DNA from: Streptomyces paludis
Lineage (GTDB): Bacteria; Actinomycetota; Actinomycetes; Streptomycetales; Streptomycetaceae
Direction: 5' to 3'
Assembly: GCF_003344965.1 (NCBI RefSeq)
Contig: NZ_CP031194.1
Location: 4,960,001 to 5,024,000, forward strand
Length of the DNA stretch: 64,000 nucleotides
The notes under the pieces are model-generated. The model did no database searches. It was not told the DNA's origin and saw nothing but the letters and a program-made list of their open reading frames with translations. Below are positions 1-12,334 of this stretch, in pieces (the first letter of the stretch is position 1; every line of letters begins with the position of its first letter). The position numbers and the translations under genes were made by a program.

Positions 1-641
1 TCGGCGCCCGCCGGTCCCGCGTACGCCGCGATCCAGGCCCGTACGGTGGCGAAGGGCCAGGCGCGCGCGTACTCCTCCGCGCTTCCGGTGGCGAAGGCCG
101 CTGCGTACGCGGCGCTGTTCGCGAGCGCGTTGGCCTCGGCGTGCACACGCGCGCTCGCCTCGGTGTTTGTACGCGCGTAGGTCTCGCCGTAGCGTTCCGC
201 CTCGTCCTCGGACCATCCGCGCGAGCGCGCGAAGGAGGCCGCGGCCGACGAGGCCCGGGAGTACACCCGCTCGCGGGGATAGGCCAGCCGGTACACCTCG
301 CGCAGCGCCGGTTCCAGCACCGCAGACCAGGCGTCCTCGGTGATCGCCTCACCGGCCGCCGCGCGTACGTGGACCGCGCGTACGGCGTCGTGCGGGGCCC
401 GCTCCGCGCCGTGCCGGACCGCCGCCTCGGCGATCAGCTCCGCCACCGCACCGGCGTGCCAGTGGTGGACCGCGGCGAAGGGCACCTCGGTGGTGGCGGC
501 GTACGGCAGCAGCCCGTCATGGCCGCCGCCGCCCGCCGGGTCGGTGAGTGCCTCGCGGACCTGGTCCAGCCAGCTCGGTACCGAAGTGGCCGAAGTGGGC
601 GGGAGGGCTTCCGGCGGGACACGTGGTTCGGTCGTCAACAC
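1..641 (-). CDS. Hypothetical protein, 3' end outside window
   Basis: An open frame of about 213 codons runs off the left window edge. The product is rich in Ala, Glu and Tyr and begins roughly LTTEPRVPPEALPP. It contains no catalytic motif or domain that I recognise and looks soluble and helical. The likely start is TTG at 638 (GGAGG five bases upstream) or GTG at 641. It lies upstream of, and on the same strand as, the polysialyltransferase-like gene but is separated from it by a hairpin, so it is probably its own unit. Function unknown. Confidence 0.6.
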   Translation of the reverse strand, partial: MLTTEPRVPPEALPPTSATSVPSWLDQVREALTDPAGGGGHDGLLPYAATTEVPFAAVHHWHAGAVAELIAEAAVRHGAERAPHDAVRAVHVRAAAGEAITEDAWSAVLEPALREVYRLAYPRERVYSRASSAAASFARSRGWSEDEAERYGETYARTNTEASARVHAEANALANSAAYAAAFATGSAEEYARAWPFATVRAWIAAYAGPAGA

Positions 642-681
642 AGCCTCCAGCGGAATCAGCGGACGGCACATTCTGCCGTGC

Positions 682-712
682 CGGTACGGGCGCGTGAACT
701 CCGCCCGTACCG
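682..712 (-). terminator. Hairpin downstream of polysialyltransferase-like gene
   Basis: GGTACGGGCG and CGCCCGTACC form a perfect 10-bp stem around a nine-base loop, 31 bases past the stop codon of the minus-strand gene. There is no strong T run, which is usual for Streptomyces terminators. Confidence 0.5.
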
Positions 713-742
713 CACCGTGTTGACGCCCGAACCCCGGCCCGC

Positions 743-2131
743 TCAGCCCACGCCCACCCGCAGGACCGCCCGGCGCAGCTTGCGTGCGCGGCGGACCATG
801 CGGCGGGCCGCCGCGTTGCGGGGGAGGCGGGTGGCGAGTGGGCCGGGGACTCCGCCGGGGAGGCCCAGGGTGGTCAGACGGCGGCGTTTGAAGTAGCGGC
901 GTTCGCGGTCGTCCAGGGGGCCGGCGAGATAGCGCTCCGCCGACGGCCGCAGATCCGGGTGGAGTTGGGGCTGCATCACGAAGCCGACCGCCACGAGCAG
1001 CTCCTCCAGCCGGGCGTCCGGGCGGTGGGTGTCGCCGGTGCCGTATCCCTCCAGGGGCGGGAGGAGGGCGTCGACGATCGTCACCGGCACCCGGTTGCTG
1101 TTCTGGTACGGGGTGAGCCGCTCCAGCAGCAGTTCCGTGCCCGAGCGGGCCACCGGGATCCCGAAGAACTCCGACGCCGTGAACAGCGCCGTCGAGAAGC
1201 ACCCGACCACCAGCGCGGGCTTCAGCCGCAGGTAGAGCACCTCGGCGAGCAACGGCGTTTCCAGTACGGTCAGTTCGGCGCCCAGCCGGGCCGCCTCCAC
1301 CGCCAGCCGCGTCGACCACACGGCGGGCGCCGCCGGATGCGGCTTGAACACCACCCGGGTGTGCCCGAGCGCCACCGCGCCCCGCACCATCCCGATGTGC
1401 AGCTCCTCCTCCTCGGCCTCGGTGAGGATCGAGAGCGCGGAGAGATACTGACCGAGCAGCAGCGCCGGTGGTCCGGCTACCGGCTCGGCGGGTGGCGCGA
1501 CCGCGCGCCCGCTCTCCGTGTCCGCGAGCTGGTCCAGGACCCGGGTGAAGGCGTCCGTGGGGATCACCTCGGCCGGCACGCCGAACTCCCTCAGCAGCAG
1601 CGGCTTCAGACCCGGCACCAGGTCCAGATGGAGCAGCCGGCGCACCCGCTCACCGACCAGCGGCTCGATCTTCGAGCGCGTCGGGCCGTAGCTCATCAAC
1701 CCGTCCGCGTAGACGGTCAGGGGCGCGGCGGTGAAGATCTGCGCGATCGCCAGCGCCGGGTTGACCTGGAGCGACTCCACGATCAACTCGACCTCGTCGG
1801 AGCCGAGTTGCCAGGACAGCCGCAAGTACCTCTCCCAGAGCGGGATGTCGTCGGGCCTCGGCGACCAGGCGCCCGGGTGGAACGGCGCGATCGTCCCGTT
1901 CCACGACACCAGGTCGTCGAACCGGCCGCGCAGCCGCTCGAACCCGGGCATCTCGTCGACGTCCGGGGTCAGTTCGGGCGTGCCCGTGGTGTTGCAGACG
2001 ACCAGCACCCGCCGGCCGGCCGGGCGGAAGAGGCCCGCGTCGAGCGCGGCGGCCAGCGTGGCCGCGCCGTAGAGGGTGGAGGCGCAGAAGATCTGGGTGG
2101 TGGTATGCGGTGTTGTCGAGGGATTCGTCAT
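743..2131 (-). CDS. Polysialyltransferase-like glycosyltransferase
   Basis: A 462-aa protein beginning MTNPSTTPHTTTQIFCASTLYGAATLAAAL. The N-terminal 'FCASTLYGAATLAAAL' segment and the later 'VVFKPHPAAP' motif match the alpha-2,8-polysialyltransferase-like family (POLYST) common in Streptomyces. Such enzymes add nonulosonic acid residues from a CMP-activated donor at the cytoplasmic face. The start is ATG at 2131, which overlaps the stop of the upstream GT2 gene as ATGA. The frame is open further upstream, but that extension only overlaps the GT2 gene. Its neighbours make CMP-activated sugar, so a role in polymerising a sialic-acid-like wall polymer is inferred. Acceptor and donor are not proven. 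Confidence 0.8.
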   Translation of the reverse strand: MTNPSTTPHTTTQIFCASTLYGAATLAAALDAGLFRPAGRRVLVVCNTTGTPELTPDVDEMPGFERLRGRFDDLVSWNGTIAPFHPGAWSPRPDDIPLWERYLRLSWQLGSDEVELIVESLQVNPALAIAQIFTAAPLTVYADGLMSYGPTRSKIEPLVGERVRRLLHLDLVPGLKPLLLREFGVPAEVIPTDAFTRVLDQLADTESGRAVAPPAEPVAGPPALLLGQYLSALSILTEAEEEELHIGMVRGAVALGHTRVVFKPHPAAPAVWSTRLAVEAARLGAELTVLETPLLAEVLYLRLKPALVVGCFSTALFTASEFFGIPVARSGTELLLERLTPYQNSNRVPVTIVDALLPPLEGYGTGDTHRPDARLEELLVAVGFVMQPQLHPDLRPSAERYLAGPLDDRERRYFKRRRLTTLGLPGGVPGPLATRLPRNAAARRMVRRARKLRRAVLRVGVG

Positions 2132-4730: not shown

Positions 4731-6005
4731 ATGACCGTCCTCGCGGTGATCCCCGCACGCGGCGGGTCCAAGGGCGTCCCCGCCAAGAACCTCGCGCCCG
4801 TCGGCGGCGTCCCGCTGGTCGTCCGCGCCGTCCGCGCCGCCCTGGCGGCCCGGTACGTGACCGATGTCGTCGTCTCCACGGACGACGCGGCCATCGCGGA
4901 CGCGGCCCGTACCGCCGGCGCCGAGGTCGTCCAGCGGCCCGCCGCCATCGCGGGCGACACCGCGACCAGCGAGGCCGCCGTCCTGCACGCGATGGACGCG
5001 TACGAGCTGATGCGCGGGGTGGCCGCCGAGGTCGTCCTGCTCGTACAGGCGACCAGCCCGTTCCTGACCTCGGGCGATCTGGACGGCGTGGTCACGGCCG
5101 TGATCGAGGACGGCGCCGACACCGCGCTGACGGTCGCGCCGACACACGGCTTCCTCTGGCGCGAGACCGGTGGTCGGGAGACGGGCGGTCGCGGGTCGGG
5201 CGGCCATGCGTCAGTCGGCGCTAACGGTGTCGGTGTCAACCACGACAAGGCGAACCGCCCGCGCCGCCAGGACCGCGAGCAGGAGTACCTGGAGACCGGC
5301 GCCGCCTACGCGATGCGCGCCGACGGCTTCCGCGCGGCGCGCCACCGCTTCTTCGGCCGTACCGCGCTCGTACGCACCGACGCCGCCCGCGTCCTGGAGA
5401 TCGACGACCCGCACGACCTGGCCCGCGCCCGCGCGCTCGCCCCACTGGTCGAACCGCCCACGCTGCCGGCGCGCGGCGACATCGACGCCGTCGTCCTCGA
5501 CTTCGACGGCACACAGACCGACGACAAGGTCCTCATCGACGCGGACGGCCGCGAGATCGTCGCCGTGCACCGCGGCGACGGGCTCGGCATCGCCGCGCTG
5601 CGCCGCTCCGGGCTGAAGCTGCTCACGCTCTCCACCGAGCGCAACCCGGTCGTCGCCGCCCGCGCCCGCAAGCTCGACATCCCCGTCCTCCACGGCATCG
5701 ACCGCAAGGACGTGGCGCTCAAGCAGTGGTGCGACGAGCAGGGCATCGCACCCGAGCGCGTGCTGTACGTCGGCAACGACGTCAACGACCTCCCCTGCTT
5801 CGACGTGGCCGGCTGGCCGGTGGCCGTGGCGAACGCGCACGGCTCCGTACGGTCCGCCGCGCGCGCGGTGACCACGACGGCGGGCGGCGAGGGCGCGATC
5901 CGCGAGATCGCGGCCTGGCTGCTCGGCCCCACGCTCCGGACCACCGAAGGCACCACCTCCCCTTACACCTCCACTCCCAGCCTCACCCCCACCCCCAACA
6001 TCTAA
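4731..6005 (+). CDS. CMP-nonulosonate synthetase fused to HAD phosphatase
   Basis: A 424-aa bifunctional protein. Residues 1-240 are an acylneuraminate cytidylyltransferase domain with the P-loop-like IPARGGSKGVPAKN near the N-terminus, which activates a sialic-acid-type sugar with CTP. Residues 250-400 form a HAD/KdsC-like phosphatase with DFDGTQTDD (nucleophile Asp), a later Lys and 'YVGNDVNDLPCF'. That domain fits dephosphorylation of a 9-phosphate intermediate before activation. A Gly/Arg-rich insert (RETGGRETGGRG) expands the cytidylyltransferase part, and the C-terminus is a low-complexity Thr/Pro/Ser tail. It lies 10 bp upstream of the NeuB-type gene. The product is probably CMP-Kdn, because no aminosugar-modifying enzymes are nearby. 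Confidence 0.88.
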   Translation: MTVLAVIPARGGSKGVPAKNLAPVGGVPLVVRAVRAALAARYVTDVVVSTDDAAIADAARTAGAEVVQRPAAIAGDTATSEAAVLHAMDAYELMRGVAAEVVLLVQATSPFLTSGDLDGVVTAVIEDGADTALTVAPTHGFLWRETGGRETGGRGSGGHASVGANGVGVNHDKANRPRRQDREQEYLETGAAYAMRADGFRAARHRFFGRTALVRTDAARVLEIDDPHDLARARALAPLVEPPTLPARGDIDAVVLDFDGTQTDDKVLIDADGREIVAVHRGDGLGIAALRRSGLKLLTLSTERNPVVAARARKLDIPVLHGIDRKDVALKQWCDEQGIAPERVLYVGNDVNDLPCFDVAGWPVAVANAHGSVRSAARAVTTTAGGEGAIREIAAWLLGPTLRTTEGTTSPYTSTPSLTPTPNI

Positions 6006-6015
6006 GGACAGTTCC

Positions 6016-6951
6016 ATGAGCACCAACGCCACCTCCCGCCTGCGCACCCTCGGCACGCGGACCGCGGGTCCCGGCCGGCCTGTCTATGTCACGGGTGAGA
6101 TCGGCATCAACCACAACGGCGACCTCGACAACGCCCTCGCGCTGATCGACGTGGCCGCCGAGGCGGGCTGCGACGCGGTCAAGTTCCAGAAGCGCACGCC
6201 GGAGATCTGCACCCCGCGCGACCAGTGGGACATCGAGCGCGACACCCCCTGGGGCCGGATGACGTACATCGACTACCGCCACCGCGTCGAGTTCGGCGAG
6301 GACGAGTACCGCACCATCGCCGAGCACTGCGCCAAGCGCGGCATCGACTGGTTCGCCTCCCCGTGGGACACCGAGGCCGTCGCCTTCCTGGAGAAGTTCG
6401 ACGTCCCCGCCCACAAGGTCGCCTCCGCCTCCCTCACGGACGACGAGCTGCTGCGCGCCCTGCGCGCCACCGGCCGGACGATCATCCTCTCCACCGGCAT
6501 GTCCACGCCGAAGCAGATCCGTCACGCGGTCGAGGTTCTCGGCAGTGACAACATCCTGCTCTGCCACGCGACTTCGACGTACCCGGCCAAGGCCGAGGAG
6601 CTGAACCTGCGGGTGATCAACACCCTTCAGGCCGAGTACCCGAACGTCCCGATCGGCTACAGCGGCCACGAGACCGGCCTTCAGACCACTCTGGCCGCCG
6701 TCGCCCTCGGCGCCGCGTTCATCGAGCGCCACATCACCCTCGACCGCGCCATGTGGGGCTCCGACCAGGCCGCCTCCGTCGAGCCGGGCGGCCTCACCCG
6801 CCTCGTCCGCGACATCCGCACCATCGAGGCGTCCCTCGGTGACGGTGTCAAGAAGGTCTACGAGTCGGAGCTGGGCCCGATGAAGAAGCTGCGCCGTGTC
6901 ACGGGCGTCGTCGCGGAGTCCGCCGAGTCCGCCGAGCCGGTCGCGGTCTAG
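6016..6951 (+). CDS. NeuB-family nonulosonic acid synthase
   Basis: A 311-aa TIM-barrel enzyme that condenses phosphoenolpyruvate with a hexose or hexosamine to give a nine-carbon keto acid. Visible family motifs are EIGINHNGDLDNA, DAVKFQKRTPE, ILSTGMSTPKQI, CHATSTYPAK and GYSGHETG. It lacks the C-terminal SAF (antifreeze-like) domain of full-length NeuB, as in short actinobacterial homologues. Together with the fused NeuA/phosphatase it supplies the activated sugar. Members of this Streptomyces group are reported to make Kdn for teichulosonic acid (family knowledge). The substrate cannot be read from the sequence. Confidence 0.88.
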   Translation: MSTNATSRLRTLGTRTAGPGRPVYVTGEIGINHNGDLDNALALIDVAAEAGCDAVKFQKRTPEICTPRDQWDIERDTPWGRMTYIDYRHRVEFGEDEYRTIAEHCAKRGIDWFASPWDTEAVAFLEKFDVPAHKVASASLTDDELLRALRATGRTIILSTGMSTPKQIRHAVEVLGSDNILLCHATSTYPAKAEELNLRVINTLQAEYPNVPIGYSGHETGLQTTLAAVALGAAFIERHITLDRAMWGSDQAASVEPGGLTRLVRDIRTIEASLGDGVKKVYESELGPMKKLRRVTGVVAESAESAEPVAV

Positions 6952-6955
6952 CGCC

Positions 6956-8047
6956 ATGACCACCGAAGGTGGGGACCGTACCCGTACTCGTAACTCCGCA
7001 CCCGCACCCGCACCCGCGATCGCCTTCGTGGAGAGCCCGGTTCAGCTGCTCAACGTGCTGGAGTGGGCGGACGCGAGCGGTACGGGTGAGGAACTGACCC
7101 TGGTCGTCCTGTCGCCCACCGACCCCATGTCGCGCGGCCAGCTCCGCCGGATGGCCGAGCTGGCCCGCGACGCGGGTTTCACCGTGCGCTGGCAGGAGGC
7201 GCGCGGGGGCGCGGGCGCGCCGCTGAAGACGGTGCGCGAGCTGGCGCCGATGCTGCGCGCGAGCGACCGGATCGTGATCGGCGACCCGTTCTCCCGCTAC
7301 GTACAACTGCTGCTGACCCTGGTCGGCGGCAAGGCCCTGACGGTCGTCGACGACGGCACGGCGACGATGGAGTTCATCGGCCAGATCGCACGCGGCGAAC
7401 GGCTGGTGCGCTGGCACCGGCGCGGCAGCCGATCGCCCCGGGAACTGGTCCTGGCGCCCGTCACGGCGGTCGCCCGGCGCCGGCTGACACCGTCGGCCGC
7501 CCGTACGGTCGAGGTCTTCACGTCGATGCCGGTCGAGGAGGTGCCCGAGGGCATCACCGTGACCCCCAACGACTTCGCCTGGACCCGCGCCTCCTTCGGC
7601 CCGCCGCGGATCTCGGCGAGCGCGGACATGGTCGGCACCTCGCTGGTCGAGACGGGCGTGGTCGACGCCGACCAGTACACCGAGGCCGTCATCGCCCTGG
7701 CCCGCACCCACAACGCGACGCGCTACTTCGCCCACCGCCGCGAGAACGTCGACAAGCTCCACAAACTGCACGCGGCGACCGGCCTGGAGATCGTCCGCCC
7801 GGACCTCCCGCTGGAACTGATAGCGCGCCGCGGCCCCATCGGCCGCACGATCCTGAGCTTCCCGTCGACCGTGGTCCACACCCTCCCCCTGGCCCTGGCG
7901 GGCACGGGCGTACGGGTCGCGGTCTGCGACATAGCCCCGGAGTGGCTCCGCGAAACAGCCTCCCCCCGAGCCCCCGGCTTCCTGGCAGTCGTCACCGGCA
8001 CCGCCCGAGACGTCCACAGACTGCCCCGCCTACCGTCCCCGGCGTAA
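6956..8047 (+). CDS. Second polysialyltransferase-like protein
   Basis: A 363-aa protein from ATG at 6956, four bases after the NeuB-type stop. After an Ala/Pro-rich start, 'IAFVESPVQLLNVLEW' is the typical beginning of the polysialyltransferase/GT52-like fold. 'DDGTATMEFIGQIARGE' and 'YFAHRRENVDKLHKL' follow in the expected order, and 'LSFPSTVVHTLPLAL' lies near the C-terminus. It is the last gene of the plus-strand sugar operon and ends at a strong hairpin. With the minus-strand paralogue at 743 it may share chain initiation and elongation. Confidence 0.75.
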   Translation: MTTEGGDRTRTRNSAPAPAPAIAFVESPVQLLNVLEWADASGTGEELTLVVLSPTDPMSRGQLRRMAELARDAGFTVRWQEARGGAGAPLKTVRELAPMLRASDRIVIGDPFSRYVQLLLTLVGGKALTVVDDGTATMEFIGQIARGERLVRWHRRGSRSPRELVLAPVTAVARRRLTPSAARTVEVFTSMPVEEVPEGITVTPNDFAWTRASFGPPRISASADMVGTSLVETGVVDADQYTEAVIALARTHNATRYFAHRRENVDKLHKLHAATGLEIVRPDLPLELIARRGPIGRTILSFPSTVVHTLPLALAGTGVRVAVCDIAPEWLRETASPRAPGFLAVVTGTARDVHRLPRLPSPA

Positions 8048-8065
8048 CACCGGCCCCGCCCGATC

Positions 8066-8094
8066 CGGCCCGTCACCGCTCCGGTGACGGGCCG
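8066..8094. terminator. Bidirectional terminator hairpin
   Basis: CGGCCCGTCACC and GGTGACGGGCCG form a perfect 12-bp stem with a five-base loop, between the convergent sugar operon and the acetyltransferase remnant. The same stem recurs at 13184-13220. Confidence 0.75.
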
Positions 8095-8101
8095 GCCGCC
8101 G

Positions 8102-8751
8102 TCACCCGGGCAGCCGGGGAGTGATGACGGAGGGACCGGTGAACTCCTTCGCGAGGGCGTCCATGAGGACCTCGTCGCAGACCTGTCCCAGCCAGTAGCC
8201 GGACTCCCGGAGGGTTCCCGCCGAGCGGAATCCGGCCTTCTCATAGGCGCGTACACCGGCGGTGTTCGGGGCGAGGACCTTGAGCCAGACCATGCGCAGA
8301 TTGGTGACGTGGAAGGCGTAGTCGAGCGTCAGCCGGGTCGCCGCCGCACCGAGTCCGTGCCCCCGCGCCTCCGGGGCCAGCATGATGACGTACTCGGCGG
8401 TCCGTACGAGTGGTCCGGCAGGAGCGTGGTGACTCCGGCCGGGACGGGGGTGCCCGAGGACAGGTCGTAGACGGTGAACCGGATGTTCTCGCCCCGGAGT
8501 TGATGGGCCATCCCCTCGGTACGGGCTTCGAGGGACTCGGGTGCCTGCCTTCCGTAACCGACGAGCAGGGCAGGATCCTGTTCCCAGCGCCAGTAGGTCT
8601 CGGCCAGGTCGGTGTGGTAGGGGCCTAGGGCGCAGGTGTCGGTGCCGATCCACAGGATCGGGTCAGGGCCGGTGCTGATGAGGGTCTCCGATGGTGAGGA
8701 CGGGCGTATGGGCGAGCGTGGAGGGCGGTTCCGCGACGGGCGTGCCGTCAA
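8102..8751 (-). pseudogene. GNAT acetyltransferase, frameshifted (lasso-tailoring type)
   Basis: Two overlapping frames together encode one GNAT. The N-terminal part (WIGTDTCALGPYHTDLAETYWRW...) reads to 'TTLLPDHS'. The C-terminal part resumes in another frame as 'VRTAEYVIMLAPEARGHGLG', the acetyl-CoA-binding motif, followed by 'VLAPNTAGVRAYEKAGF'. One base appears to be missing near 8407, within CACTCGTACGG on the coding strand. The 5' end overlaps the lasso synthetase gene by about 90 bases, and no canonical start lies closer. Its position matches the acetyltransferase of the acetylated lasso peptide albusnodin (from memory). Either tailoring is lost or there is a sequencing error. Confidence 0.75.
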
Positions 8752-11059
8752 CGGTCCGTATCCAGGCGTGCAGACGTACCGGGTTCGGGGCGACGCCGTG
8801 ACACCAGGTGACAGCGAGCCGTCGTGCGGCCAGGAAGAGGGTTACGGCGGCGGACTCTTCCAGGCAGGCCGTACGGCCGGGGAAGTGCCATCCGGCGTAA
8901 CGGACGGCGAGGACGGCGGCGTGGGCCTCGGCAAGGGTGGCCGCGCGCCGGCGGGTTGACGCGGCGGTTCTCAGTGTTGTCGTGATGCGCAGCATGGCGG
9001 ACCTCGGATCCCCCGCCCGCTTGACCGCGGAGATGAAAGCCAGAGCACTTGCCGCCGCGAGGCCGGACCGGCAGGGAACAGCCGGGGGACGGCTTGCTCC
9101 CGCGGGATGCTCCGTGCTGCCCCAACTCGCCGGTGCGGGGCGGGCGGTGATCGGGGCGGGCCACGGTTGGGGCGAGGATGTGGGCGCCAGCAGTCCGGCG
9201 GCGAGGAGGTGATTCGCCAGCCCCGGTGCCATGGCAGCCGGGCGGCCGGTGAGGGCGGTGTCCCGCCACTGGAGCGCGGCTGCGGGCAGAAGGCACTGCA
9301 CGAGGCCGCCGCGGTAGTCGATGAGAACCAGGACATGTCCGAAGTCGACCGCGTGTACATGGCTGGGGGAGGTCGCGAAGCGGGGTGTCTCAGGCACGCG
9401 GGTCCCTCGCTGCTCGGTCGGTCCAGACAGGGCCGCGAGGCCGGCCAGATTGGCCCGCAGTCCGGCGTAGTGGTCGCTGTTGAAGCTGCCCTTGGTGGTG
9501 CGGGCGGCGATCTCCGGCGGCAGCAGGTGCCGCATCGCACGGGAGAGGACCGGCTTGTAGAGGTGTACGTGTGGACGGCGGTCGAGGGGGGTGCGCAGGA
9601 CCGCGTCCATGACCCGCGCGTCGAGGAACGGGTTGTGCAGGTCGATGCCGCAGGTGGCGGCGAGTTGGGCGTCGGCGGCCGCGGTTCGGGCGACCTCTCG
9701 GATCTCGTCCACGAGAGTGCGTACCGAGGCGTCCGGACCGGGAAGAGGGTCCTCGGTGTCCACGGCCTCGGTGGTCGCGTCGGCCAGCAGCCGCAGCGCC
9801 GCGGGTCGGGCCCAGGACGGTGTCGGCAGGGAGTGGAACCATCCGACACGGTGATGCCGGCCGCCCCGGGACGGGACCGGGGCCGCCGGGGAGCGGGCCA
9901 GGTCGACGAGGGCGTCGCGGCGGCTGGTTCGGGCCGTGGCCGCGGCACCCACCAGAAGCGGTGCGATCGCGCAGTGCCGTAGTCGGGCCCAGCCGAGAGC
10001 CTCACGCATCGCTCGTGGCCACCTGCGTCGGCGGATGAGGTCGGCGAGGTGGACGGGCGGCTGGAACAGCACACTGTCACCGCCGTCACCGGTCAGGTGT
10101 GTCCTGCTGCCGAGGTGGTGGTGCATCCAGCGCAATTGAGCGGTCAGCCGGGCGAGGGTGAGTGTCGAGGGGGCGGGTTCGTCCGTGGCGGGGACGGAAG
10201 TGACGCCCGTGTACGGGAGGTGCTCCGCTGCCAGCGGGAAAAGGTGGTGGACGATGCGGTCCGGGTGCGCTGCGGACGCCAGCTTCGCATAGCGGAGATC
10301 CGCACCGTCGTCGTTGCCCTCGGGGTGGATTGTGACGGCGCTGAGCCTGTACGGGGCGGGCAGGGCGGCTGCGGCCAGGACAGCCACCGAGGTCGAGTCG
10401 AGCTCGCCGGAGAGGTCGCAGGACAGGTCCGGGGCGGCGGCTCGCACCCGGAGGCCCACGGCTGCCGAGAGGGCGTCGCGCAGACGGTGATGCGGCGGTC
10501 CCGGAACCGGTTCCGGGCGCCACAGTGTGGTACATCGCAGGCTTCCTCCGTTCGCGGGCAGTTCGATCCGGCAGCCTGGGGCCAGCTGTTCCACACCGGC
10601 GTAACAGGTGCGTGAGCCGATGAGCGCGGGCACCGACGGTGCGAGGACAAGGCAGGCGAGCCGCTGGGAGTCGACGGAGGCGGCGGTGAGGCCGGCGAGC
10701 ATTCTGGCCGAAGTGGACCATGCCCAACCGTTCGACCAGGCCGCCACGTAGACGGGCAGGGCCGAAGCCGGGTCGGTGTGGCAGATCACGCCGTCACGAG
10801 TCTCTTCGACGACTGCGTAGGCGCCGGCCCACCGCCAGGAGATGTCGGTGGGCAGCGGAGCGTCGGCCGAGCGCCGCAGCTCGGAGCGGGTGGCACCGCA
10901 CCAGCCCAGGACCAGGACGCGCCGGTGTCCGCCCTGGGCAGGGATGAAATGGGCGGGTGCGCCGCCGAGTCTCCAGGCGGAAGATCCGGCGCCGAAGCGC
11001 TCGGCTCCTTCGGGGAGGAGACGAATGTGTTCGGTGGTACTGAAACCGCCGAAGGTCAC
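8663..11059 (-). CDS. Fused lasso peptide cyclase, RRE and leader peptidase
   Basis: About 798 aa from GTG at 11059 (GGAGG upstream; the frame is open to 11140). Residues 1-560 form an asparagine-synthetase-like lasso cyclase with an N-terminus MTFGGFS lacking the Cys2 nucleophile, an ATP pyrophosphatase loop SGELDS near 217-222 and GDGGDSVLF near 324. Residues 565-630 (HAVDFGHVLVLIDYRGG...CLLPAAALQW) look like the PqqD-type leader-binding B1/RRE domain. Residues 675-798 form the B2 transglutaminase-like peptidase with a Cys near 732 (TACLEESAAVTLFLA) and a His near 764 (RLHAWIRT). All three activities needed for a lasso fold are thus in one chain. It lies 97 bp downstream of the precursor gene. 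No lasso ABC exporter is present in the window. Confidence 0.88.
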   Translation of the reverse strand: MTFGGFSTTEHIRLLPEGAERFGAGSSAWRLGGAPAHFIPAQGGHRRVLVLGWCGATRSELRRSADAPLPTDISWRWAGAYAVVEETRDGVICHTDPASALPVYVAAWSNGWAWSTSARMLAGLTAASVDSQRLACLVLAPSVPALIGSRTCYAGVEQLAPGCRIELPANGGSLRCTTLWRPEPVPGPPHHRLRDALSAAVGLRVRAAAPDLSCDLSGELDSTSVAVLAAAALPAPYRLSAVTIHPEGNDDGADLRYAKLASAAHPDRIVHHLFPLAAEHLPYTGVTSVPATDEPAPSTLTLARLTAQLRWMHHHLGSRTHLTGDGGDSVLFQPPVHLADLIRRRRWPRAMREALGWARLRHCAIAPLLVGAAATARTSRRDALVDLARSPAAPVPSRGGRHHRVGWFHSLPTPSWARPAALRLLADATTEAVDTEDPLPGPDASVRTLVDEIREVARTAAADAQLAATCGIDLHNPFLDARVMDAVLRTPLDRRPHVHLYKPVLSRAMRHLLPPEIAARTTKGSFNSDHYAGLRANLAGLAALSGPTEQRGTRVPETPRFATSPSHVHAVDFGHVLVLIDYRGGLVQCLLPAAALQWRDTALTGRPAAMAPGLANHLLAAGLLAPTSSPQPWPAPITARPAPASWGSTEHPAGASRPPAVPCRSGLAAASALAFISAVKRAGDPRSAMLRITTTLRTAASTRRRAATLAEAHAAVLAVRYAGWHFPGRTACLEESAAVTLFLAARRLAVTWCHGVAPNPVRLHAWIRTVDGTPVAEPPSTLAHTPVLTIGDPHQHRP

Positions 11060-11155
11060 TGGCCCTCCACTTGCCGTCCGGTTCGCGCGGGGAGCGGGGT
11101 GGTGAGGACACGGCAAGTTCACTTCGTATGTCCGCACCACCCCCTGTGAAGAGGG

Positions 11156-11329
11156 TCAGCTGTTGTAGGCGCGACGCTTGTCCTCGCTCTGACCGCCGCC
11201 CTGGCCCTCGGTCAGCTCGGCGATGTCGCCGAGTGTGACCGGCAGCAGATCGTCCTCACGGCCGGTGCCGGTGCCGGCGCTGGTGCTGGTACCGGCGGGG
11301 CGGGTGTCGGTGCGAAGCGGATTGCTCAT
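11156..11329 (-). CDS. Lasso peptide precursor, albusnodin-like
   Basis: A 57-aa peptide gene preceded by AGAGGA. The leader is Thr/Ser/Gly-rich and then carries LLPVTLGDIAELTE, the leader motif with the conserved Thr at position -2. The predicted core is GQGGGQSEDKRRAYNS, with Gly1 as N-terminal amine and Glu8 or Asp9 as macrolactam acceptor. From memory, albusnodin of Streptomyces albus is the same except for a C-terminal Cys, and its Lys10 is acetylated. This core ends in Ser. The gene sits directly upstream of the fused cyclase/peptidase. It is short and easily missed by gene finders. Confidence 0.9.
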   Translation of the reverse strand: MSNPLRTDTRPAGTSTSAGTGTGREDDLLPVTLGDIAELTEGQGGGQSEDKRRAYNS

Positions 11330-11392: not shown

Positions 11393-11418
11393 GGATTTCT
11401 TGATATTTCTAGAAATCC
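11393..11418. promoter_or_regulatory. Inverted repeat in lasso promoter region
   Basis: GGATTTCT and AGAAATCC are perfect 8-bp arms ten bases apart in an AT-rich patch, between the lasso precursor start and the upstream helix-turn-helix gene. It is a candidate operator or promoter element for the lasso operon. Function is inferred only. Confidence 0.4.
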
Positions 11419-11443: not shown

Positions 11444-12334
11444 TCACTCGCCATCTCCGGGCACTTCAGCGACCTCTGAGGAGAGGTCGTCGATGACCCG
11501 CGTGATGAGGGCGCGCGCAGCTCGCCCGTAGGTGGCCACCGCCGCAAGCCGCTCGAAGGCGGTGCCGTACAGCTTCACTTCCGACGGCTGGGCAAGATTC
11601 AGCTCGGCGGAGTACGTCTCCACCATCACTCGGTCGTGATCAAGGATCCAGAAACCGTGCCATGGGGCCACCGCGTATGGGGTTTCGAATCCGATGATGC
11701 CGAGCTTGACGTTCGGCAGCGTCGACAGAGAGATCAGACGGTCGAGTTGCCCGAGCATGACATCGGGCGTACAGAGCCGAAAACGCAATGCCGCTTCGGT
11801 GAGAACGAAGTGGAAGCGCTTGTCGGGTCGGTAAAGAATCTCCTGGCGTTGAGTCCGTACCCGCACTGCTTCGTCCACATCATGGGGCACGTTGAGGGTG
11901 GTGATGCCCTGAGTGAACCGCTCCCGCGCGTACCCCGCCGTTTGCAGCAGGCCAGGGACAACGGTCGGCTCGAATGCCCGGAAAAACCGTGTCCGCGCGT
12001 CAAGCCGGGCGATCGAGTTTTGATGAGAAGCGAAGCCGGCCTTCAGCTGACGCTGCCACTGCGCATACTGGAGATCCAGGGTGTGCAACGAAGTGAGCAG
12101 CGCCTCGGTCCTGGCCTCGCCTCCGGTTGCCTCGGTCCAGTCGCGGATGTCTTCGGCAGTCGGTGTCTGCCTGCCGTTCTCCAGCTTGGAGACCTTGGAA
12201 GGTGGCCACGACAACGACTCCGCGAGCTGCTTGCCGGTCATTCCGGCTTGCTGACGCAGCTCACGGAGCCGTTGCCCGAGCGCACTGCGTGCCTCGTGAA
12301 CGGTAGTGATGCCCGATGACTTACTCGGCCGCAA
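11444..12334 (-). CDS. XRE-family regulator with DUF5753 domain
   Basis: A 296-aa protein. Residues 15-75 form a helix-turn-helix (LGQRLRELRQQAGMTGKQLAESLSWPPSKVSKLENG). The remainder is the DUF5753 sensor/partner domain with 'FEPTVVPGLLQTAGYAR' near residue 120. The start is TTG at 12334, which overlaps the stop of the DUF6879 gene. In Streptomyces such proteins pair with small DUF397 or DUF6879 partners and affect development or secondary metabolism. It lies immediately upstream of the lasso promoter on the same strand, so it may regulate that cluster, but no direct evidence exists. Confidence 0.85.
   Translation of the reverse strand: MRPSKSSGITTVHEARSALGQRLRELRQQAGMTGKQLAESLSWPPSKVSKLENGRQTPTAEDIRDWTEATGGEARTEALLTSLHTLDLQYAQWQRQLKAGFASHQNSIARLDARTRFFRAFEPTVVPGLLQTAGYARERFTQGITTLNVPHDVDEAVRVRTQRQEILYRPDKRFHFVLTEAALRFRLCTPDVMLGQLDRLISLSTLPNVKLGIIGFETPYAVAPWHGFWILDHDRVMVETYSAELNLAQPSEVKLYGTAFERLAAVATYGRAARALITRVIDDLSSEVAEVPGDGE

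Follow-up and report, generated by a model that had tools for sequence, protein, structure and literature searches.

A gene cluster of the albusnodin lasso peptide family lies in the stretch of Streptomyces paludis DNA analysed here (64,000 nucleotides; contig NZ_CP031194.1, positions 4,960,001 to 5,024,000), hereafter called the window, with positions counted from its first letter. The genes are transcribed from the minus strand, and follow one another as a regulator of the XRE/DUF5753 type, the precursor gene (A), an open reading frame (ORF) of 825 amino acids in which a macrolactam cyclase (C) runs on into the leader peptidase (B), and an acetyltransferase gene (T) split between two frames. 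Very likely, the locus is an albusnodin-family cluster of order A-C-B-T which has been inactivated recently.

The precursor, an albA-type peptide of 57 amino acids with an ATG start, is encoded at 11156-11329 (minus strand). The NCBIfam model NF033525, 'albusnodin family lasso peptide', assigns it 65.3 bits (E 4.8e-18) over a cut-off of 30, and the match is therefore not a chance one. A preliminary description of this DNA had correctly placed a lasso precursor here, and had considered it easily missed; the latter is not the case, as this curated NCBI model picks it up directly. The leader ends in ...LLPVTLGDIAELTE and the core is GQGGGQSEDKRRAYNS. The same description had given a core differing from albusnodin only by the C-terminal Cys, and this agrees with the albusnodin sequence given in Table 1 of the review PMC12427821 (GQGGGQSEDKRRAYNC), 15 of the 16 residues being the same and Cys16 being replaced by Ser. 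The core thus consists of GQGGGQSEDKRRAYN followed by the residue 16 which is variable or absent in the albusnodin family. Aligned with Streptomyces corynorhini, the leader shows an expansion of ~33 bp coding for Thr/Ser/Ala/Gly. Within its own genome the precursor sequence has a single match, which is itself. The core is not of the G...E-K-R/Q-x-PY type, which we take to be the mark of the ...KRSPY-type cores that we label triculamin-like, and which are present in other loci, as for example L066 and L189.

The 825-residue ORF (8663-11140, minus strand) was recognized by sequence comparison as a truncated cyclase continuing into B. The cyclase part, ORF residues 30-571 (9428-11053, minus strand), scores 661.5 bits against NF033561, the albusnodin/ikarugamycin macrolactam cyclase model with a cut-off of 300, and its nearest named relatives reside in Streptomyces. 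The match, however, spans model positions 2-511 of 561, whereas the three relatives tested reach 559-560. Alignment with the co-linear locus of S. corynorhini (L138) places the junction of a net 160-bp deletion at 9425-9445 (minus strand). The deletion is no multiple of three, the conserved C-terminus of the cyclase is gone, and the truncated cyclase continues in the B frame. The B part, residues ~600-825 (8663-9343, minus strand), matches positions 3-235 of the 236 in the B profile, and includes the B2 leader peptidase domain (NF033537) at ORF residues 694-816 along with a putative RRE-like portion, a label that comes from no model match. All relatives in which both are present (21/21) encode cyclase and B2 as two ORFs, lying in different frames in 20 of them and in a common frame in Streptomyces sp. 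SM11. The window keeps the A-C-B-T order, but not separate and complete C and B genes.

A second change falls in the nucleotide loop of the cyclase. The SGGLDS motif, which we take to bind the ATP phosphates in asparagine-synthetase-like enzymes, reads SGELDS in the homologue alignment (ORF residues 244-249; 10394-10411, minus strand), Glu standing for the second Gly. For lasso cyclases, an acyl-AMP mechanism like that of asparagine synthetase is described in PMC4979651; the passages of PMC11420955 consulted yielded no data on the nucleotide loop. A search of the PDB with the S. corynorhini cyclase as query gave 0 matches at E <= 0.001. Homologues of the 825-residue ORF were drawn from 7993 scored candidates, those sharing most words with the query, with eligible lengths of ~454-1444 amino acids; 146 had E <= 0.001, and the best 120 were used. 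Among these 120 the ORF of the window is the only one of ~800 residues, the other 119 measuring 514-657. SGGLDS is present in all the others listed (119/119), and in the tail lost from the window one Trp column is invariant (119/119) and two further columns, Glu and Gln, are each conserved in 118/119. Where at least 95% of the others agree (139 columns), the window departs 9 times, seven of these in the lost tail; the median of the others is 1. A full-length NF033561 domain with an SGGLDS loop is accordingly missing.

A further lesion affects the acetyltransferase. The N-terminal part of this albT-type GNAT enzyme is encoded in one frame at 8329-8751, with similarity extending to ~8407 (T profile positions 2-91 of 193), and the C-terminal part in a second frame at 8102-8653, with similarity from ~8407 onwards (positions 91-190 of 193), both on the minus strand. 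In comparison with the intact protein of locus L054, residues 1-90 are 89% identical in one frame, residues 91-190 are 84% identical in the other, and a single-base frame change maps at ~8405-8412. No intact GNAT gene stands next to B in the window; intact copies occur in 41 related clusters. A second close copy was not found in the 8.45-Mb genome, where the next matches are partial, with 30-40% identity and E of at least 1.4e-7, the best having E 1.4e-7 and 30% identity. The loss of the start codon was considered as an additional lesion and rejected, since S. corynorhini and genome G028, in which the frame is open, also lack ATG, GTG or TTG at this place. In the passages of the Saskemycin preprint consulted, no content on lasso acetyltransferases was found. 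Of the lasso synthetase and the acetyltransferase remnant that the preliminary description had placed beside the precursor, the remnant is confirmed as a gene lying in two frames; the synthetase ORF does adjoin the precursor, but its cyclase is truncated, run into B and altered at SGGLDS.

The Ser residue at the end of the core recurs in nature. A degenerate core pattern retrieved 21 loci from named genomes; as most core positions are fixed in it, more distant cores go uncounted, and records very near the window may be missing. The cores of these loci end in Cys (12), Cys-Ala (1), Tyr-Ala (1) or Ser (4), or stop at AYN with no residue 16 (3). Altogether, seven Ser-ended albusnodin-type cores have been seen (L135, L136, L138, L142, L175, genome G385 and the window), and the C and T genes are intact in five of the seven clusters (L135, L136, L138, L142 and L175). 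In Streptomyces sp. SM11 (L136) the very 16-residue core of the window is found in an intact cluster. The idea that Cys16Ser may be the cause, or the mark, of acetyltransferase loss was rejected on these grounds, and Ser16, common to the window and to S. corynorhini, whose cluster is intact, is no part of the damage. The review PMC9266682 reports that, upon heterologous expression of albusnodin, the sole product seen was without the C-terminal Cys and carried an acetyl group on Lys10; a Ser in place of Cys need not, therefore, alter the mature peptide. In Streptomyces sindenensis (L082, oriented 7095-7230), the cluster of which is split across two contigs, the albusnodin core is in frame, and the upstream leader is apparently frame-shifted relative to SM11 and G385.

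In intact relatives B would remove the leader, C would activate an acidic side chain for ring closure on the first residue, and T would acetylate Lys10, a modification reported for albusnodin, with a timing described as unsettled. Leader cleavage by B may persist in the window, but ring closure should fail. Truncated, and altered at the nucleotide loop, the cyclase is probably unable either to activate the acidic side chain or to form the ring, and no lasso, acetylated or not, would come from this locus. The loss of the acetyltransferase would be tolerated because no lasso is being made.

The order in which such clusters decay was monitored by running C, B and T profiles, built from 119 homologues, 16 loci and 18 loci, respectively, on 53 loci, most of which had been found via the precursor. 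Six loci are not assessable because of N runs (L058), contig breaks (L057/L145 and L134/L082) or a contig end (L063). Loci L069-L073 were not included: the precursors of L070-L073 (genomes G258, G141, G220 and G415) score below the NF033525 cut-off, and L069 (G061) has a distant cyclase match only. In the 47 assessable loci, window included, C and T are intact in 41, 22 with albusnodin-type cores and 19 belonging to the wider family, several of them near-identical. T is broken in five (the window, L055, L081, L068 and L182), and C is broken in all five. C alone is broken in one locus (L061), T alone in none of the 47, so that among the 41 clusters of this census with an intact C and an assessed T no broken T was found. 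The association is significant (Fisher p = 4e-6). JJ66, a candidate for a broken acetyltransferase beside an intact cyclase, was rejected, as the gap is a run of N.

The broken clusters have been damaged in different ways. In genome G385 (L055) the precursor (7805-8088, minus strand) carries the core GQGGGQSEDKRRAYNS, cyclase and B are gone, and a short acetyltransferase tail lies directly downstream. In Streptomyces sp. A1277 (L081, ~8-772, plus strand) a precursor with core GQGCGQSEDKRRAYNC is followed by a 157-residue ORF, in which, through a large internal deletion, the beginning of C adjoins the final part of T. L068 (genome G044, 5405-8250, plus strand) encodes a cyclase devoid of ~110 N-terminal profile positions and a T gene in two frames, and no precursor was matched there; L182 (genome G751) retains the precursor and the start of C, with no B or T within the 8-kb stretch fetched. 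In L061 (Streptomyces sp. SID9727, minus strand) C profile positions ~210-419 have been lost in frame, and B and the acetyltransferase are open; here C is broken and T is kept, which complements the T-broken loci in the order-of-loss pattern. Comparable remains in related species, namely in G385 and A1277, support the notion that the locus of the window is decaying. A literature search on decayed lasso clusters found 44 papers, and in none of the 15 listed does the term 'lasso peptide' occur.

Whether acetylation of Lys serves albusnodin folding or protects the producer was described as undetermined in a 2021 review. For triculamin and lariocidin, Lys acetylation is self-resistance according to the review PMC13352647; the Sven-LP cluster could not be introduced into three hosts, and toxicity was suspected by the group concerned, as stated in PMC5974421. 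T may thus be safely lost only after, or together with, C, and the pattern fits an acetyltransferase that can be dispensed with only after the loss of the synthetase. Breakage of T only alongside C is predicted alike by a folding and by a self-protection role, if the acetyltransferase is obligate. The broken loci listed above represent material for testing the role of the acetyltransferase, and the window, a natural knock-out, is mildly useful in this respect. They also call for caution, as genome-mining matches resting on the precursor alone may be dead clusters.

Several observations weigh against recent inactivation. Neither the precursor nor the B part shows damage. Three other homologues deviate more (13-16 times) than the window (9) at the 139 conserved columns, hence the number alone is no proof. 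Three of the five T-broken loci are large deletions which took C and T together; without these the table becomes 2/0/1/41, with p = 0.003, and, as the clusters are not phylogenetically independent, both p-values ignore shared ancestry. The effects of SGELDS and of the truncation on activity are predictions from sequence. A second strain of the same species is not among the homologues listed, where the best other cyclase is 80% identical, and the single-base lesion is thus without independent confirmation. Lastly, in a three-way comparison that takes G028 as the outgroup, the branch of the window has 54 amino-acid and 56 synonymous changes, the branch leading to S. corynorhini 50 and 48, respectively (p = 0.89), and no gene segment differs significantly when tested separately, the lowest p being 0.10 for the N-terminal part of the acetyltransferase. 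Relaxed selection was accordingly rejected as evidence of decay; either decay set in only recently, or the test lacks power, or the genes remain in use.

Continued use of the genes could take different forms. According to the preliminary description, the Cys-to-Ser change and the loss of the acetyltransferase would make this a natural unacetylated variant. A working cluster releasing unacetylated albusnodin-Ser16 would agree with the lack of relaxed selection over the lineage, with the intact precursor and B2 domain, and with the uninterrupted 825-residue frame of the fusion protein, which could then be a functional one-chain synthetase. We regard this as highly improbable. The conserved C-terminal block is gone, the SGGLDS motif kept in the 119 other homologues listed is altered, the acetyltransferase is present in all 41 clusters whose cyclase is intact, and most Ser-ended clusters are intact, so that the claim of the preliminary description does not hold. 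The unacetylated product is opposed also by published data, since the review PMC9266682 mentions no trace of an unacetylated intermediate, and no product, when expression was carried out without albT. The more daring version, in which the fusion acts as a one-chain lasso synthetase, its nucleotide loop being rewired, and is able to make unacetylated albusnodin-Ser16 with no need of an acetyltransferase, seems extremely improbable.

Errors of sequencing or assembly, in what would be an ordinary intact cluster making acetylated albusnodin-Ser16, are a very unlikely source of the lesions. The acetyltransferase lesion is a single-base one, the motif change could be due to one base, and a second strain that might settle the matter is not among the homologues listed; yet the net 160-bp deletion and the two further lesions would then all need to be errors within one 3-kb stretch, in a single-contig genome listed with 100% completeness. 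Hardly more credible is that the precursor is still used, either processed in trans by another synthetase or cut by B into a linear peptide with a role of its own. At ~3.78 Mb the genome of the window does host another lasso locus, comprising cyclase, B2 and putative ABC transporter, but its cyclase is only 30% identical, and the leader of its candidate precursors is not the same (...FAPTMATAPVADVTL). The persistence of precursors in G385 and A1277 after the loss of the synthetase cannot be read as a sign of function either, and was rejected as such, being an ascertainment effect, since both loci were found via the precursor. Recent inactivation thus accounts best for the locus, which as a gene cluster is an ordinary one, most likely a decayed copy of the known albusnodin cluster.

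The surroundings of the cluster are conserved, and the genes flanking it on both sides are co-linear with those of S. corynorhini. The XRE/DUF5753 transcriptional regulator directly upstream of the precursor (11444-12334, minus strand) has a counterpart at 4966-5856 of L138. Between regulator and precursor lies an inverted repeat (GGATTTCTTGA/TCTAGAAATCC; 11393-11418) with 11-nt arms 4 nt apart, largely kept in S. corynorhini, which is a candidate operator of the adjacent regulator. Genes of nonulosonic-acid type adjoin the cluster on the plus strand (4731-8047). The first (4731-6005) combines a PseF-like cytidylyltransferase and a KdsC-like phosphatase in a single fusion protein. The others encode a NeuB-family synthase (6016-6951) and a 383-residue protein with no Pfam match (6896-8047), the last adjoining the cluster in S. 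corynorhini as well. The second lasso locus (L191 2884-7843, plus strand) contains two candidate precursors with the common leader VFAPTMATAPVADVTL, a 579-residue cyclase, B2 and the ABC transporter, a label read off the sequence and not obtained by model search.

The known albusnodin cluster of Streptomyces albus DSM 41398 resembles the locus of the window, and, according to reviews, has the 15-residue core GQGGGQSEDKRRAYN, the A-C-B-T order and a GNAT gene downstream. The window differs in having Ser16 and not Cys, a cyclase truncated and run into B, a changed SGGLDS motif and a frameshifted acetyltransferase. The Sven-LP, or albusnodin, cluster of Streptomyces venezuelae (ATCC 10712, NRRL B-65442) is described with the same 15-residue core and an acetyltransferase gene, and the Sven-LP core in the precursor table of PMC5974421 is the same as that of albusnodin. 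Genome G015, which encodes the same precursor as published Sven-LP, is unlike the window, C (609 amino acids) and B being in separate frames and the GNAT gene being intact. SM11 shares the core GQGGGQSEDKRRAYNS with the window, but its C, B and T are intact, and its cyclase is 55% identical. The nearest relative read is S. corynorhini (80% identity in C, 81% in B2), which has the same flanks and a Ser-ended precursor; in contrast to the window, its core is GQGRGQSEDKRRAYNS, its cyclase of 614 amino acids retains SGGLDS and the full tail, and its GNAT frame is open.

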